Source: Gemmatimonadota bacterium
Lineage (GTDB): Bacteria; Gemmatimonadota; Gemmatimonadetes; Gemmatimonadales; Gemmatimonadaceae
Assembly (NCBI GenBank): GCA_031127085.1
Contig: JARIEY010000002.1
Span: 1-61,055 of the forward strand
Length of the DNA: 61,055 nucleotides
Reading direction: 5' to 3'
Shown: piece by piece, positions 31,094 to 36,395 of the stretch
Layout: the number at the start of each line of letters is the position of its first letter
Numbering within the stretch: the stretch's first letter is position 1
Notes under the pieces: model-generated
The model's database searches: none
Told to the model about the DNA's origin: nothing
What the model saw: only the letters and a program-made list of their open reading frames with translations
Program-made: the position numbers and the translations under genes

Positions 31094-31984
31094 ATGACCG
31101 ACGGTACGCTGCGCGTCGCCTTCCAGGGTGAGCTGGGGGCCTTCTCGGAGGAGGCCATCCAGCAACTCTGGTTGGGACAGGCGGAACCGATGCCGCACCG
31201 AGACTTCAGCGATGTCATCGCGGCGGTGCAGTCGGGGGCAGCGGATCGTGGCGTGATTCCCATCGAGAACACCATCGTAGGCGGTATTGCCGCCGCCCAC
31301 GACGCGATCATCGCCGCCCCTGATGTGCACGTCACGGCGGAAACCGTGGTCAACGTGCATCACTGCCTGCTCGGCCCGCCGGGCGCCACGTTTGACAGCG
31401 TGAAGATGGTGCTCAGCCATCCCGTGGCGCTTGCGCAATGCGGCGCATTCTTCGCGCGCTTCCCGCGCCTGGAAGTGCACGCCGTCTACGACACCGGCGG
31501 TGCGGCACTCGACGTATCCAACGTGGGAGATCCCGAGATCGCCGCCGTCGCCAGCCGCAACGCAGCCCAGCGATACAAACTGCAGGTCCTGATGCCCGAC
31601 ATTGAGGACCGGCCCGACAACCAGACCCGTTTTCTCGTCGTCGCCCGCGCGCCCGAGCCGCACCCCGAGGGGACGCCCGTGCGCACGGCCGTCATCATCA
31701 CGCACGAGGATCGCCCGGGATCACTGCTGCGCGTGCTCGAGCCGTTGGCCCGGCATGGTATGGATATTCGCCGGCTCGAATCGCGCCCCACCGGCGATCC
31801 GTGGAGCTACCTGTTTTTCCTGGAGTTTGATCACTCGCTGGGCGAGCCCATCGTGCAACGCGTCCTCAGCGAAATGACCGCCGCCGCGCGCAAGTTGCGC
31901 GTCCTGGGCACGTTCCCCCGCTGGAATCCCGGGCGCCGCGGGTCTATCGGGTGGCGCGTCGGATCACCAACCCCGACACACTAG
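31094..31984 (+). CDS. pheA: prephenate dehydratase
   Basis: Start set at the ATG at 31094, directly after the M16 stop. The 296-residue product has the prephenate dehydratase domain (VAFQGELGAFSEEA; ADRGVIPIENTIVGGIAAAHD; LSHPVALAQCGAFF; and NQTRFLVVAR with the catalytic TRF motif) and a C-terminal ACT domain (AVIITHEDRPGSLLRVLEPLA; RRLESRPTGDPWSYLFFLEF), which binds phenylalanine for feedback control. It converts prephenate to phenylpyruvate. No chorismate mutase domain is fused. Its TAG stop and that of the convergent queF gene share one CTAG. Confidence 0.95.
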   Translation: MTDGTLRVAFQGELGAFSEEAIQQLWLGQAEPMPHRDFSDVIAAVQSGAADRGVIPIENTIVGGIAAAHDAIIAAPDVHVTAETVVNVHHCLLGPPGATFDSVKMVLSHPVALAQCGAFFARFPRLEVHAVYDTGGAALDVSNVGDPEIAAVASRNAAQRYKLQVLMPDIEDRPDNQTRFLVVARAPEPHPEGTPVRTAVIITHEDRPGSLLRVLEPLARHGMDIRRLESRPTGDPWSYLFFLEFDHSLGEPIVQRVLSEMTAAARKLRVLGTFPRWNPGRRGSIGWRVGSPTPTH

Positions 31985-32370
31985 CGCGCGTATCGTGCGG
32001 TGATCACGGACTTGATGCCGCCCCGCACATTGAAGTCGCCCACGACTCGCATCGACACGGGCGCACACGCGGCCGACAGATCATCGAGAATGCGGTTCAC
32101 CGCGCGCTCGTAGAAGATGCCGTCGTTGCGGAAGCTCCAGAGATAGAGCTTCAGGCTCTTCAGCTCGAGGCACGCCGCCGCAGGCGTGTACGTGACGTGG
32201 ATGGTGCCGAAATCCGGCGCGCCGCCCTTGAGCAGCTCCAGTTCCGCAGCGTCGGTTTCGACCCCGCCCAGCGGGCAGAGCGACGTGAACTCGTCGCAGG
32301 TCATCGTGATTTCGTAATCGCGACCCGGATACGGATTCGCAAACGTCTCGAGCAGGTCAGTACGCGGCAT
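31981..32370 (-). CDS. queF: NADPH-dependent 7-cyano-7-deazaguanine (preQ0) reductase
   Basis: The 129-residue product fits the short QueF class: catalytic Cys32 in FTSLCP, Asp53 in APDFGTI, NADPH-binding ELKSLK at 69-74, and FNVRGG near the end. It reduces preQ0 to preQ1 for queuosine. Between the Cys and the Asp there are about 20 residues (GGVETDAAELELLKGG) where Bacillus QueF has about six, and the histidine of the usual FHE is tyrosine (Y87). I believe FYE occurs in other QueF groups, so activity is likely kept. It is the last gene of a five-gene leftward operon that includes a QueE-like protein. Confidence 0.92.
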   Translation of the reverse strand: MPRTDLLETFANPYPGRDYEITMTCDEFTSLCPLGGVETDAAELELLKGGAPDFGTIHVTYTPAAACLELKSLKLYLWSFRNDGIFYERAVNRILDDLSAACAPVSMRVVGDFNVRGGIKSVITARYAR

Positions 32371-32371
32371 A

Positions 32372-33304
32372 TCAGTCCTGGCGGCGCCGCTTCGACGCAG
32401 CGTCGAGCAGCTGGAGTTCTTCGGGCGACAGGCTTCCCAGCCCAGTCGCGGAAATCTTGTCGAGCACCCGGTTTAGCGTTGCTGCATCGGGATCAACGCC
32501 CGGCGTGGGCGCCGCGGGGCGTTGCGGCTTGGTCGCCGTGTTCCGCCGCGCAGTCATCGCCTTGCTGCGGGCCACGGCATCATCGGCATCGTGCCCGCGC
32601 GGCGGGCGGTGCGACTTGGGCACCGCGCGCGGCAGGTCTTCCTCAGGAAGATCGGGCACCGGTTCCACGTGCCGGCGCACGCCGGCCAGGCTCATACGCG
32701 CCGAGGTGCGCAGATACAGCCACCCAGCGCCGAGCCCGCCGAGGTGGGCGAGGTAGGCAATGCCACCGCTCGGCGACGCCGAGATGCCGCCCAGCAGGTT
32801 CATCAACACCACCAGCAGCATCAGCCAGCGAACCGACATCGGCACCAGGCCAAACAGGTACACCGTGTCGTGCGGCCAGAGCGTGGCATAGGCCAGCATC
32901 ACGCCCATCACGGCCGCCGAGGCGCCAATCAGCACCGAATCGCCGGCCATGAAGAGATGCAGGAACCAGCCGCCGATGCCGCAGAACAGGTAGAAACGCG
33001 CAAACTCGCCTGCTGACCACGCCGCTTCGACGCGCGGCCCAAAGAGCCAGAGTGTGTACATGTTCAAGACGAGGTGCCAAAAGCCCCCGTGCACGAACAT
33101 GTAGGTGCCAATCGTCCACCACGCGCGGCCGAGCGCCCCCAGATCGCGGGAGTGGAACCCCAGTACCGCAAACATGTCGTCCGGGCTGGCCACCGTGACC
33201 TGCAGGAAGTACACGGCGACATTCAGGCCCAACAGCCAAGCGACCGCCGCGCCCACGCGGCGCGACGGTTGCAAACTCATGGCTGGCGGTTCGTGGGGGG
33301 ACAT
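32372..33304 (-). CDS. rhomboid-family intramembrane serine protease
   Basis: The 310-residue product (ATG at 33304; ATG at 33280 is an alternative) has six membrane segments between about 18 and 200 and an intact rhomboid site: HGGFWHLVLNM (His72, His77, Asn81), GASAAVMG with Ser129, and YLAHLGGLGAG with His187. The C-terminal 110 residues are a charged, Pro-rich cytosolic tail ending in a short helix (LNRVLDKISATGLGSLSPEELQLL), a feature seen in many bacterial rhomboids. Substrates unknown. It lies 13 bases after the QueE-like gene and one base before queF. Confidence 0.9.
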   Translation of the reverse strand: MSPHEPPAMSLQPSRRVGAAVAWLLGLNVAVYFLQVTVASPDDMFAVLGFHSRDLGALGRAWWTIGTYMFVHGGFWHLVLNMYTLWLFGPRVEAAWSAGEFARFYLFCGIGGWFLHLFMAGDSVLIGASAAVMGVMLAYATLWPHDTVYLFGLVPMSVRWLMLLVVLMNLLGGISASPSGGIAYLAHLGGLGAGWLYLRTSARMSLAGVRRHVEPVPDLPEEDLPRAVPKSHRPPRGHDADDAVARSKAMTARRNTATKPQRPAAPTPGVDPDAATLNRVLDKISATGLGSLSPEELQLLDAASKRRRQD

Positions 33305-33317
33305 ACTCGGAATATCG

Positions 33318-33977
33318 TCAGCGCAGTCCGGTCGGTGGAGGGAGGCGCAAGGCCAGCCTCGTGTCGGCGTGCAACGCCACCGCCTGCTCGAGCAGCGTCG
33401 ACCAGCGACGATCGAGCGAAAGCGGCTCCCCTGTGAGCAACGGGTGAACAACGATTTGAGTTTCCGCGCTCACCGCGTGGGCCTGTTCGATGAGCCGCAG
33501 CAGCTGGCTGTCGCTCGTGTCGCCCTGCGGGCAAAGCACGAGCGCGTGGGCACAGCCCGCGCCCGACGCCGCCGCGAGGGTTTCTATCGCGCTCGCCCGC
33601 ATTCCGTCGGGTCCCACGAAATCCACCGTCACCTGCGCCATCGCCAAGTGCGGAGCCAGCAGCGCCAGTGCCTCAGGGCGCTGACCGTCACTGTCGAGCA
33701 TCAGAGGAAGCGCCATCGGCGCAGTACCGAATGCCGCCGTGAGGAACTCGAGGTTGCCCAACGGATCGCGTCCGCCGATGGCGATCGAGTGGAACTTCGT
33801 GCGCCCCAGTTGGCGATCGATCTCCCGGAGCAGCGCCGTCGACGTGTACATCGTCGCCGTTTCCGCCTCGCCCGCAAACCGGACAAAGAGCTGTCGGCGG
33901 CCCATCCACACGCCTTGCGCCTGCACGCCCGCGGGAACTCCGGCGAGTGCGGCAGCAGCCATTCGCGGTGACGTCAT
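33318..33977 (-). CDS. QueE-like protein lacking the radical-SAM cysteines
   Basis: The 219-residue product aligns by eye with 7-carboxy-7-deazaguanine synthase (QueE): GVQAQGVWMGRRQLFVRFAG (17-36) corresponds to SxQGEGxxxGxxxvFVRlAG, but where QueE continues CNLxC..C it has EAETATMYTS, so the iron-sulfur site is gone. IGGRDPLG (67-74) replaces TGGEPLLQ, and LDSDGQRPEAL (94-104) replaces ETNGxxPEAL. The tail RLALRLPPPTGLR mimics QueE's RVxPQxHKxxGxR. The N-terminus carries an Ala-rich stretch instead of a substrate-binding start. It cannot perform SAM chemistry, so it probably has a structural or regulatory role. It overlaps the ddl stop by one base and precedes rhomboid and queF. Confidence 0.65.
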   Translation of the reverse strand: MTSPRMAAAALAGVPAGVQAQGVWMGRRQLFVRFAGEAETATMYTSTALLREIDRQLGRTKFHSIAIGGRDPLGNLEFLTAAFGTAPMALPLMLDSDGQRPEALALLAPHLAMAQVTVDFVGPDGMRASAIETLAAASGAGCAHALVLCPQGDTSDSQLLRLIEQAHAVSAETQIVVHPLLTGEPLSLDRRWSTLLEQAVALHADTRLALRLPPPTGLR

Positions 33978-34993
33978 CAGGACTTTCCTCCGTGTGTACG
34001 CAGCGCCTGCTGCACGATCCGTTCGCAGAGCGACGCAAAGTCTATCCCCGCCGCCGCGGCCGCCTGCGGAATGAGGCTGAGTTCCGTCATCCCCGGCAGC
34101 GTGTTTGCCTCGAGACAGTAGAATGTACCGTCTTCTGTCATCCGAAAGTCAATGCGCGCGTATCCGTCGAGCTTCAGCGACCGGAAGGCGCGACGCGCCT
34201 GCGCCTGCACCGTCGACACCTGCGACTTGGTCAGCTTCGCCGGAAACTCCTCGCGCGCCATACCGGCCGTGTACTTGCACTCGTAGTCGTACAGCTCGTG
34301 CTTCGGAATGATTTCGCCCACCGGCAGGGCGTCGTCGCCAAGTATCCCGACCGTGAGCTCGCGTCCGGGAATGAACCGCTCGATCATCACTTCGTCGTCG
34401 TACAGAAACGCTTCCTGCACGGCGGCGGCGAGTTCCGACGGCTTGTCCACCTTGGTGAGTCCCACCGTGGAGCCCTGCTTGGAGGGCTTCACGATCACCG
34501 GCCAGCCCATCACCGCCTCCACCTGCTCCTCGGTCGCCGGGGCCATCAGCCAGTCGGCGGTCGTCACCCCCGCCGAACGGAAGAGCGTCTTGGAGAGATC
34601 CTTGTCCATCGCCAGCGCGCTCGCCAGATGCCCGCTCCCCGTGTAGCACACGTGAATGGCATCGAGCATCGCCTGGATCGTGCCGTCCTCCCCGTGCCCG
34701 CCGTGCAGGGCGAGGAACACTACGTCGGCCTCGCGCACCACCGGCAGCGTGGTGAGAATGGGGCTCAGTTCGGTGCGCTCGAGCTTGCGCAGCTGTTCCA
34801 GGGTCGGAGGCTCACGCTTCATCGCGCCGTGCAGCAATGCGGCAAACGCCGGTTCGCTCAACACGCCGGCCGCCGGATCCATAGGCGTCACCACGTGTCC
34901 GCGCGCGCGCAGCGCCTGCACCACCCGCACGCCCGACGCCAGCGAGACGTCGCGCTCGGCGGATGTGCCGCCCATCATCACCGTGATTTGCAT
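33977..34993 (-). CDS. ddl: D-alanine--D-alanine ligase
   Basis: The 338-residue product is a canonical Ddl: MMGGTSAERDVSLASG (first substrate site), ALHGGHGEDGTIQAMLD, YTGSGHLASALAMDK, KPSKQGSTVGL, ERFIPGRELTVGILG and the metal site RIDFRMTEDGTFYCLEANTLPGMT. It makes the D-Ala-D-Ala dipeptide for peptidoglycan. It lies four bases after the cystathionine beta-synthase gene and its stop overlaps the QueE-like gene's ATG by one base. Confidence 0.96.
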   Translation of the reverse strand: MQITVMMGGTSAERDVSLASGVRVVQALRARGHVVTPMDPAAGVLSEPAFAALLHGAMKREPPTLEQLRKLERTELSPILTTLPVVREADVVFLALHGGHGEDGTIQAMLDAIHVCYTGSGHLASALAMDKDLSKTLFRSAGVTTADWLMAPATEEQVEAVMGWPVIVKPSKQGSTVGLTKVDKPSELAAAVQEAFLYDDEVMIERFIPGRELTVGILGDDALPVGEIIPKHELYDYECKYTAGMAREEFPAKLTKSQVSTVQAQARRAFRSLKLDGYARIDFRMTEDGTFYCLEANTLPGMTELSLIPQAAAAAGIDFASLCERIVQQALRTHGGKS

Positions 34994-34997
34994 GCCG

Positions 34998-36395
34998 TTA
35001 CCGCGCCATCAGGAAATGCAGCAAATCCGACCGCGTGAGAATGCCGGCAATCGTTCCGCCACGCCGCACCAGCACGGCCGGGTTGTTCTTGGTGACCAGC
35101 TTCACCACCTGATCGATCGGCAGTCCGTCGTCGACCACCGGGAACGGCGCATCCATCACGTCGCCGACGGTGCGGTCGAGCACCTTGGAGTCCTCGAGCC
35201 CGCGCGAGGCGAGGACGCTCTCGCTCACCGAGCCTACGCAGTTCGCGCCATCGAGCACCGGCAGTTGCGACACATCGTGCTGGCTCATCAGGCGCAGCGC
35301 CTGACGCACGGTGGCGCCGGCCGCCGTGCTCACCACCATTGGCGTGTCACCCGTCTTGGCGCCCAGCAGTTGCCCAAGCGTCGCCTTCTCGCTGTCGAGC
35401 ATCTGGTTTTCACGCATCCACTCGTCGTTGTACAGCTTGGAGAGATACCGTTCGCCCGTGTCGCAGAGGAAGGTCACCACCAGGGCGTCCGGATCGTTGA
35501 CGCGGCGCGCGACGTTCAGCGCCACGTGCGTGATGAGCCCGGCCGACCCGCCCACGAACATCCCTTCCTCGCGCGTCAACCGGCGCGCCATCGCAAAGGC
35601 GTCACGGTCGCTGACTGTCTGCCACTCGTCGATGACACTCATATCGAGTGTCCCCGGCACCTTGTCCTGCCCGATCCCTTCCACCTTGTAGGGCGCACCT
35701 TCGCCGTGCGAAGCACCCTGGCTGCGCCAGTGTTCGGCGAGAATCGAGCCGGCCGGATCGCCGCCGACGATCTGCACCTTGGGATTCTTCGACTTCAGGT
35801 AGCGCCCCGTGCCGGTCAGCGTGCCGCCCGTGCCGGCGGCACCAACGAAATGCGTGATGCGCCCCGACGTCTGCTCCCACAACTCCGGCCCCGTCGTCGC
35901 AAAGTGTGCGTCCGGATTGGCGTCGTTGTAGAACTGATTGGCGAAGACCGCGTTGGGCGTCTCTTTGGCGAGGCGCTTGGCCATCACCACGTAGTTGTCC
36001 GGATGGTCCGGCGCCACGGCCGTTGGCGTGATGATCACCTCGGCACCGAACGCCTTCAGCAGCCGAACTTTCTCCTGCGACATTTTGTCGGGCATCGTGA
36101 AGATGCACCGATAGCCCTTCAGCGCCGCCGCAATGGCCAGGCCGACGCCGGTGTTGCCGCTGGTCCCCTCAACGATGGTTCCACCCGGCTTCAGCGCACC
36201 CGAACGTTCTGCTGCCTCGATGATCGGCAGGCCGATGCGGTCTTTGACGGAACCGCCCGGATTGAAGAACTCCGCCTTGCCGTAGACCGGCGTCACGATC
36301 CCCTTGGTGACGCGCGTGAGGCGAATGAGCGGCGTCCATCCGATGGTATCGAGGACGTTGTCGTATGGCTGGCGGTGGCGTTCGTGTTCAGTCAT
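34998..36395 (-). CDS. cystathionine beta-synthase with CBS domains
   Basis: The 465-residue product has a PLP-dependent beta-synthase domain (about 10-325) with lysine 51 in GGSVKDR, the phosphate loop TSGNTG, and GAAGTGGTLTGTGRYL, followed by two CBS motifs (about 345-460: ATVRQALRLMSQHDVSQLPVL; LPIDQVVKLVTKNNPAVLVR). Domain order matches cystathionine beta-synthase rather than CBS-less cysteine synthase. It condenses serine (or O-acetylserine) with homocysteine or sulfide. CBS domains usually bind adenosyl ligands for control. First gene of the ddl - QueE-like - rhomboid - queF operon. Confidence 0.92.
   Translation of the reverse strand: MTEHERHRQPYDNVLDTIGWTPLIRLTRVTKGIVTPVYGKAEFFNPGGSVKDRIGLPIIEAAERSGALKPGGTIVEGTSGNTGVGLAIAAALKGYRCIFTMPDKMSQEKVRLLKAFGAEVIITPTAVAPDHPDNYVVMAKRLAKETPNAVFANQFYNDANPDAHFATTGPELWEQTSGRITHFVGAAGTGGTLTGTGRYLKSKNPKVQIVGGDPAGSILAEHWRSQGASHGEGAPYKVEGIGQDKVPGTLDMSVIDEWQTVSDRDAFAMARRLTREEGMFVGGSAGLITHVALNVARRVNDPDALVVTFLCDTGERYLSKLYNDEWMRENQMLDSEKATLGQLLGAKTGDTPMVVSTAAGATVRQALRLMSQHDVSQLPVLDGANCVGSVSESVLASRGLEDSKVLDRTVGDVMDAPFPVVDDGLPIDQVVKLVTKNNPAVLVRRGGTIAGILTRSDLLHFLMAR

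Follow-up and report, generated by a model that had tools for sequence, protein, structure and literature searches.

A cluster-less QueE homologue under purifying selection is encoded beside ddl in Gemmatimonadaceae

Some Gemmatimonadaceae encode a protein, here called dQueE, whose descent from QueE is well supported and which has lost the loop that holds the iron–sulphur cluster. QueE, or 7-carboxy-7-deazaguanine synthase, converts CPH4 to CDG. We rate dQueE as a pseudoenzyme-like branch of QueE, and consider it somewhat probable that it is a neofunctionalised QueE-derived protein that works without radical chemistry. In the window (the whole 61,055-nucleotide stretch of Gemmatimonadota DNA that was analysed), dQueE and its neighbors are arranged as follows:

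34998–36395, minus strand: cystathionine beta-synthase/cysteine synthase gene, upstream of ddl
33977–34993, minus strand: ddl, D-alanine--D-alanine ligase, directly upstream of dQueE (Pfam and NCBIfam)
33975–33979, minus strand: TGATG, ddl stop codon overlapping the dQueE start codon (sequence)
33318–33977, minus strand: dQueE, cluster-less QueE homologue, 219 amino acids plus stop (open reading frame and translation)
32372–33280, minus strand: rhomboid intramembrane protease gene, directly downstream of dQueE, start at 33280 or 33304 (PF01694, E 8e-28)
31981–32370, minus strand: queF, preQ0 reductase type II (TIGR03139, 144 bits, above cut-off)

An earlier sequence-only reading had described this open reading frame, its coordinates and its missing cysteine motif as we find them, but placed queF three genes away; it lies two genes downstream of dQueE. 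The window dQueE protein was assigned to no family by Pfam (at cut-off), NCBIfam or PHROGs, and the NCBIfam scan returned zero matches, so that no score exceeded the curated QueE cut-off.

To place dQueE among known folds, we combined structure prediction with profile comparison. A template-free AlphaFold2 model computed from an alignment of dQueE family members only (model 1, pLDDT 89.9) matched Bacillus subtilis QueE (5TH5) best by VIA-align (Z 18.3, rmsd 3.0, 203 residues). A further model (model 2, pLDDT 86.6), for which only the most divergent family members were used, likewise had QueE as its top match by VIA-align (Z 17.6) and at rank 1 by Foldseek (E 6e-6). Alignment of the dQueE family to QueE profiles with hhalign scored 38.4–40.9 over nearly the full length, above the maximum of 22.6 among 200 column-shuffled control profiles and the 13.5 of a reversed profile. 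Two models, two structure aligners and the profile comparison thus bear out the proposed QueE likeness and retained fold.

Pairwise BLAST of dQueE against the QueE of the same genome yielded no usable match, and the dQueE profile found only a short local match to one QueE type alone, a mixed QueE profile being needed. In agreement with QueE descent, Pfam Radical_SAM matched weakly in 11 of 23 members (best E 3.3e-4). Against single sequences, the dQueE profile scored 25–33 for the QueE type that Gemmatimonadaceae themselves carry, 14–28 for a second QueE type, 20.7 for Escherichia coli QueE and 16.5 for E. coli PflA (PFL activase). The first of these, the highest among those compared, only suggests that the family's own QueE type may be the parent; in a QueE tree the dQueE branch is long (3.6 changes per column), and the parent is not settled by the tree.

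Compared with the QueE structures of B. subtilis (5TH5/5TGS), Burkholderia multivorans (4NJG) and E. coli (6NHL), dQueE shares the fold, the length, the order of barrel elements, the N-terminal QxxG...FVR segment and the C-terminal end of the chain. It differs in lacking the cluster loop, the cysteines, the Mg-binding Thr and the C-terminal HK, in having GRDP instead of GGEP, and in being coupled to ddl rather than to queC/queD. The genome's own QueE (G000:C155, L043) has a homologous fold but, unlike dQueE, has both GGEP and an intact CX14CX2C motif, and adjoins queC and queD. Three segments of dQueE record these relationships:

33879–33923, minus strand: N-terminal QueE-like motif, Q19 to FVR33 (family alignment, hhalign to QueE)
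33846–33869, minus strand: EAETATMY, bridging the deleted [4Fe-4S]-cluster loop (family alignment)
33762–33773, minus strand: GRDP, replacing the SAM-binding GGEP (family alignment)

Relative to QueE, a gap of at least 13 residues follows RFAGEA in hhalign and other alignments, and the loop is absent in all members compared. The deleted stretch is the site of QueE's three [4Fe-4S] cysteines (CX3CX2C or CX14CX2C) and of the Mg-binding Thr. The earlier view that EAETATMYTS replaces CxxxCxxC therefore stands as to the missing cysteines but not as a residue-for-residue substitution, the loop having been excised. Within the bridging segment, every member compared has the same residue at A38, E39, T40, A41, M43 and Y44; some basal members differ at E37 (Pro or Ala) and at T42 (Gln). 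Likewise, GGEP is lost as had been noticed, but its counterpart is GRDP rather than GGRDP, since residue 68 is variable while G69, R70 and D71 are invariant. Q19 and R33 align with Q13 and R27 (E. coli numbers), two substrate residues of QueE; R33 is Lys in L061, the position corresponding to E15 is variable, and the C-terminal HK gives way to Pro-Pro or Gly-Pro-like residues. The roles of Q13, E15 and R27 in substrate binding are described for E. coli QueE (PMC11142719). E. coli QueE remained able to support Q-tRNA formation when mutated to C31A or C35A (PMC11142719), so loss of cysteines by itself does not prove an enzyme dead; in dQueE, the entire loop is missing. With the cluster loop and Mg-binding Thr deleted and GGE lost across the family in favor of GRD(P), radical-SAM catalysis by dQueE is very unlikely, in agreement with the sequence-only reading. 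That reading knew of no described case, and we too found no cysteine-less QueE family in the literature searched, a search outside which most subscription journals lay.

Several measures suggest that dQueE is nonetheless maintained. Against its five closest relatives, dQueE has a dN/dS of 0.10–0.13, similar to that of ddl (0.09–0.17) and lower than that of the rhomboid gene (0.12–0.25) in the same comparison, indicating that it is under strong purifying selection. The best-conserved loops are those at the C-terminal ends of barrel strands: their entropy averages 1.05, compared with 1.57 for loops on the opposite side (p 0.02 by permutation, 0.13 once loop 35–45 is omitted), and in the model most conserved polar residues lie in them. 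The C-terminal ends of barrel strands are the usual active-site face.

The gene neighborhood points to ddl as the closest partner. In 33 of 38 loci dQueE begins before the ddl stop codon has ended, with an overlap of 4 nt in 24 and of 1 nt in 9, and wherever the contig permits the check, no locus has dQueE separated from ddl. The earlier claim of tight linkage to ddl and the rhomboid gene is thus upheld, and these are the stable partners. For queF, also named in that claim, the picture differs: it lies close downstream of dQueE in most loci, yet is an inconstant partner, and in genome G056 ddl, dQueE and the rhomboid gene stay together without queF, which has moved into a queC-E-D-F operon. 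The cystathionine beta-synthase/cysteine synthase gene belongs to the row often but not always, and runs opposite to ddl in L035, L166 and L170.

To determine how widespread this arrangement is, we scanned one genome per species across 84,980 species and recovered 41 dQueE-related loci, almost all titled Gemmatimonadota; no relative was found in the viral contigs searched. Among 150 genomes of the phylum, dQueE is confined to Gemmatimonadaceae, where 27 of the 59 genomes sampled carry it. In the outgroup families f2, f4, f6 and f7, a rhomboid-like gene comes next after ddl (gaps of 9–116 bp), in f5 and f9 there is no rhomboid near ddl, and in none of these six does dQueE stand beside ddl. Carriers have a gene-length insertion separating the two genes. 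The ddl tree requires five changes in dQueE presence, three of them forced by well-supported branches. These data fit a single gain at the base of Gemmatimonadaceae, between ddl and the rhomboid gene, followed by several losses; by eye, the ddl–rhomboid gaps of five lineages without dQueE hold no remnant.

Cysteine-bearing intermediates were also sought in other Gemmatimonadota, where the active QueE proved to be of a different type and its gene has no ddl, rhomboid gene or queF within about 1.5 kb. The QueE of other classes of the phylum is of type CX3CX2C (L106–L135), and that of Gemmatimonadaceae of type CX14CX2C (L043, L077–L105), with B. multivorans QueE as its closest solved relative. 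This distribution suggests that queE was replaced by another type within the phylum.

These observations show that a QueE copy lost its Fe-S-cluster loop, exchanged GGEP for GRDP and came to lie between ddl and the rhomboid gene. We propose that its barrel would still bind a small polar ligand at the face that once held the active site, with the conserved Q19, R33, E39, T40, Y44, R70, D71, D97, R100, H178 and R190/R191 as predicted contacts, and that it would be made in proportion to Ddl. It would have its link to cell-envelope metabolism, not deazaguanine synthesis, and might either regulate or assist Ddl or the supply of cell-wall precursors, or catalyze a new, non-radical reaction. We put forward tentatively that dQueE binds a ligand and acts as a regulator or partner of Ddl or of cell-envelope metabolism; it is gene coupling from which we infer a functional link to Ddl, and this coupling may mirror merely the spot where dQueE landed. 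Since about half of Gemmatimonadaceae genomes are without dQueE, Ddl in general does not need it. The full proposal, in which a cluster-stripped radical-SAM fold has become a non-radical ligand sensor or enzyme translationally coupled to, and acting with, the Ddl of Gemmatimonadaceae, is more speculative.

The second branch of this proposal, in which the QueE fold would carry a non-radical enzyme with a new active site formed by EAETATMY, GRD, DGQR and HP, is possible though on the unlikely side; the sequence-only reading had named a new activity on this fold as its alternative. The many invariant polar residues at the C-termini of the barrel strands and the strong purifying selection speak for it, and beta-alpha barrels are frequently recruited to new reactions. 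On the other hand, dQueE has no recognizable catalytic signature, and no neighboring metabolic gene hints at a substrate.

By contrast, the role first suggested for dQueE, as a regulator or scaffold of deazaguanine synthesis, or an allosteric subunit partnering QueF or the active QueE, is doubtful. Its QueE ancestry, the closeness of queF in most loci and the retention of Q19 and R33 at substrate-residue positions would suit such a role, as would the reduced genome G049, from which queC, queE and dQueE are absent alike (1.8 Mb, rated 100% complete; queF and TGT are kept). However, counting QueE matches that reach the N-terminal half and adding a follow-up search, we detected an active queE in 25 of 27 dQueE carriers and 28 of 32 non-carriers among Gemmatimonadaceae; in the window genome it forms part of a complete queC-queE-queD operon elsewhere (G000:C155, L043). 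Most carriers thus do have a separate active queE beside this conserved family, but because the presence of dQueE makes no difference to how common active queE is, dQueE does not track the pathway. The proposed test of co-occurrence with queF was uninformative overall, because nearly all Gemmatimonadaceae genomes have queF, and the discriminating cases go against a tie. One is G056, which retains ddl-dQueE-rhomboid although its queF has joined queC-E-D. The other is G034, rated 100% complete, which carries dQueE and in which TGT only was detected, with no QueC, QueE or QueF; its queF might lie past the contig end beside the rhomboid gene, but the absence of queC and queE would still call for another explanation.

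Some further features of these pathway genes were recorded. In the window QueF (31981–32370), about 13 additional residues follow the CP motif (CPLGGVETDAAELELLKGGAPDF); we considered this insert as a co-adaptation to dQueE and rejected the idea, as the insert is conserved across Gemmatimonadaceae with and without dQueE. The window genome has a second queF above the family cut-off (G000:C224:4545-4925), possibly a duplication or contamination, where other Gemmatimonadaceae genomes show one. Of 59 Gemmatimonadaceae genomes, 11 have two complete TGT copies; 10 of these 11 are without dQueE, for which shared ancestry may account.

E. coli QueE inhibits septation without needing catalysis, as its R27A mutant shows, and this effect requires E45-W67 and C31/C35 (PMC11142719). 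By analogy with this moonlighting at the FtsZ ring, dQueE might be a regulator of cell division or envelope stress, and its coupling to the peptidoglycan gene ddl supplies a similar envelope and division context. We nevertheless hold this to be quite unlikely: the E45-W67 helical insert and C31/C35 are all absent from dQueE, and since these determinants lie in the deleted region, the E. coli mechanism in its known form is not to be expected.

Descent from a radical-SAM or barrel family other than QueE, such as PFL activase, NifB or the pterin-binding domain of methionine synthase, is improbable. For model 1, PFL activase came next by VIA-align (Z 16.6), with NifB at Z 14.8, and by Foldseek alone NifB and KDO8P synthase head the list. 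The best weak sequence match was to the pterin-binding (MeTr) domain of methionine synthase, over dQueE residues 48–151, but it was non-significant and of partial coverage (E 0.096 for the profile, 0.011 for a single sequence). Against these stand the first rank of QueE in both models by VIA-align and in model 2 by Foldseek, the PflA profile score, which falls within shuffle noise while those of Gemmatimonadaceae QueE rise above it, and the QueE-like QxxG..G....FVR motif. The methionine synthase pterin-binding domain also appears in the Foldseek results for model 2.

Finally, that dQueE is merely a decaying queE pseudogene is contradicted by a dN/dS of about 0.1, the lack of internal stops in the members found and a motif fixed family-wide, making it highly improbable despite the loss of the gene in several lineages and an internally deleted copy in L041. 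The latter (L041:5976-6201) comes from a low-coverage MAG and has an in-frame deletion that leaves ~45 residues at the start and ~30 at the end, reflecting either ongoing loss or an assembly artefact.

To our knowledge, conserved families of radical-SAM enzymes without a cluster have been little described. In dQueE, selection has retained a radical-SAM fold after its cluster loop was excised, and the active QueE in the same cells offers a natural comparison, which makes dQueE a tractable case for how radical-SAM barrels get re-used. Gemmatimonadaceae are an environmentally common and poorly studied family, and dQueE points to an unrecognized component beside one of their cell-wall genes.
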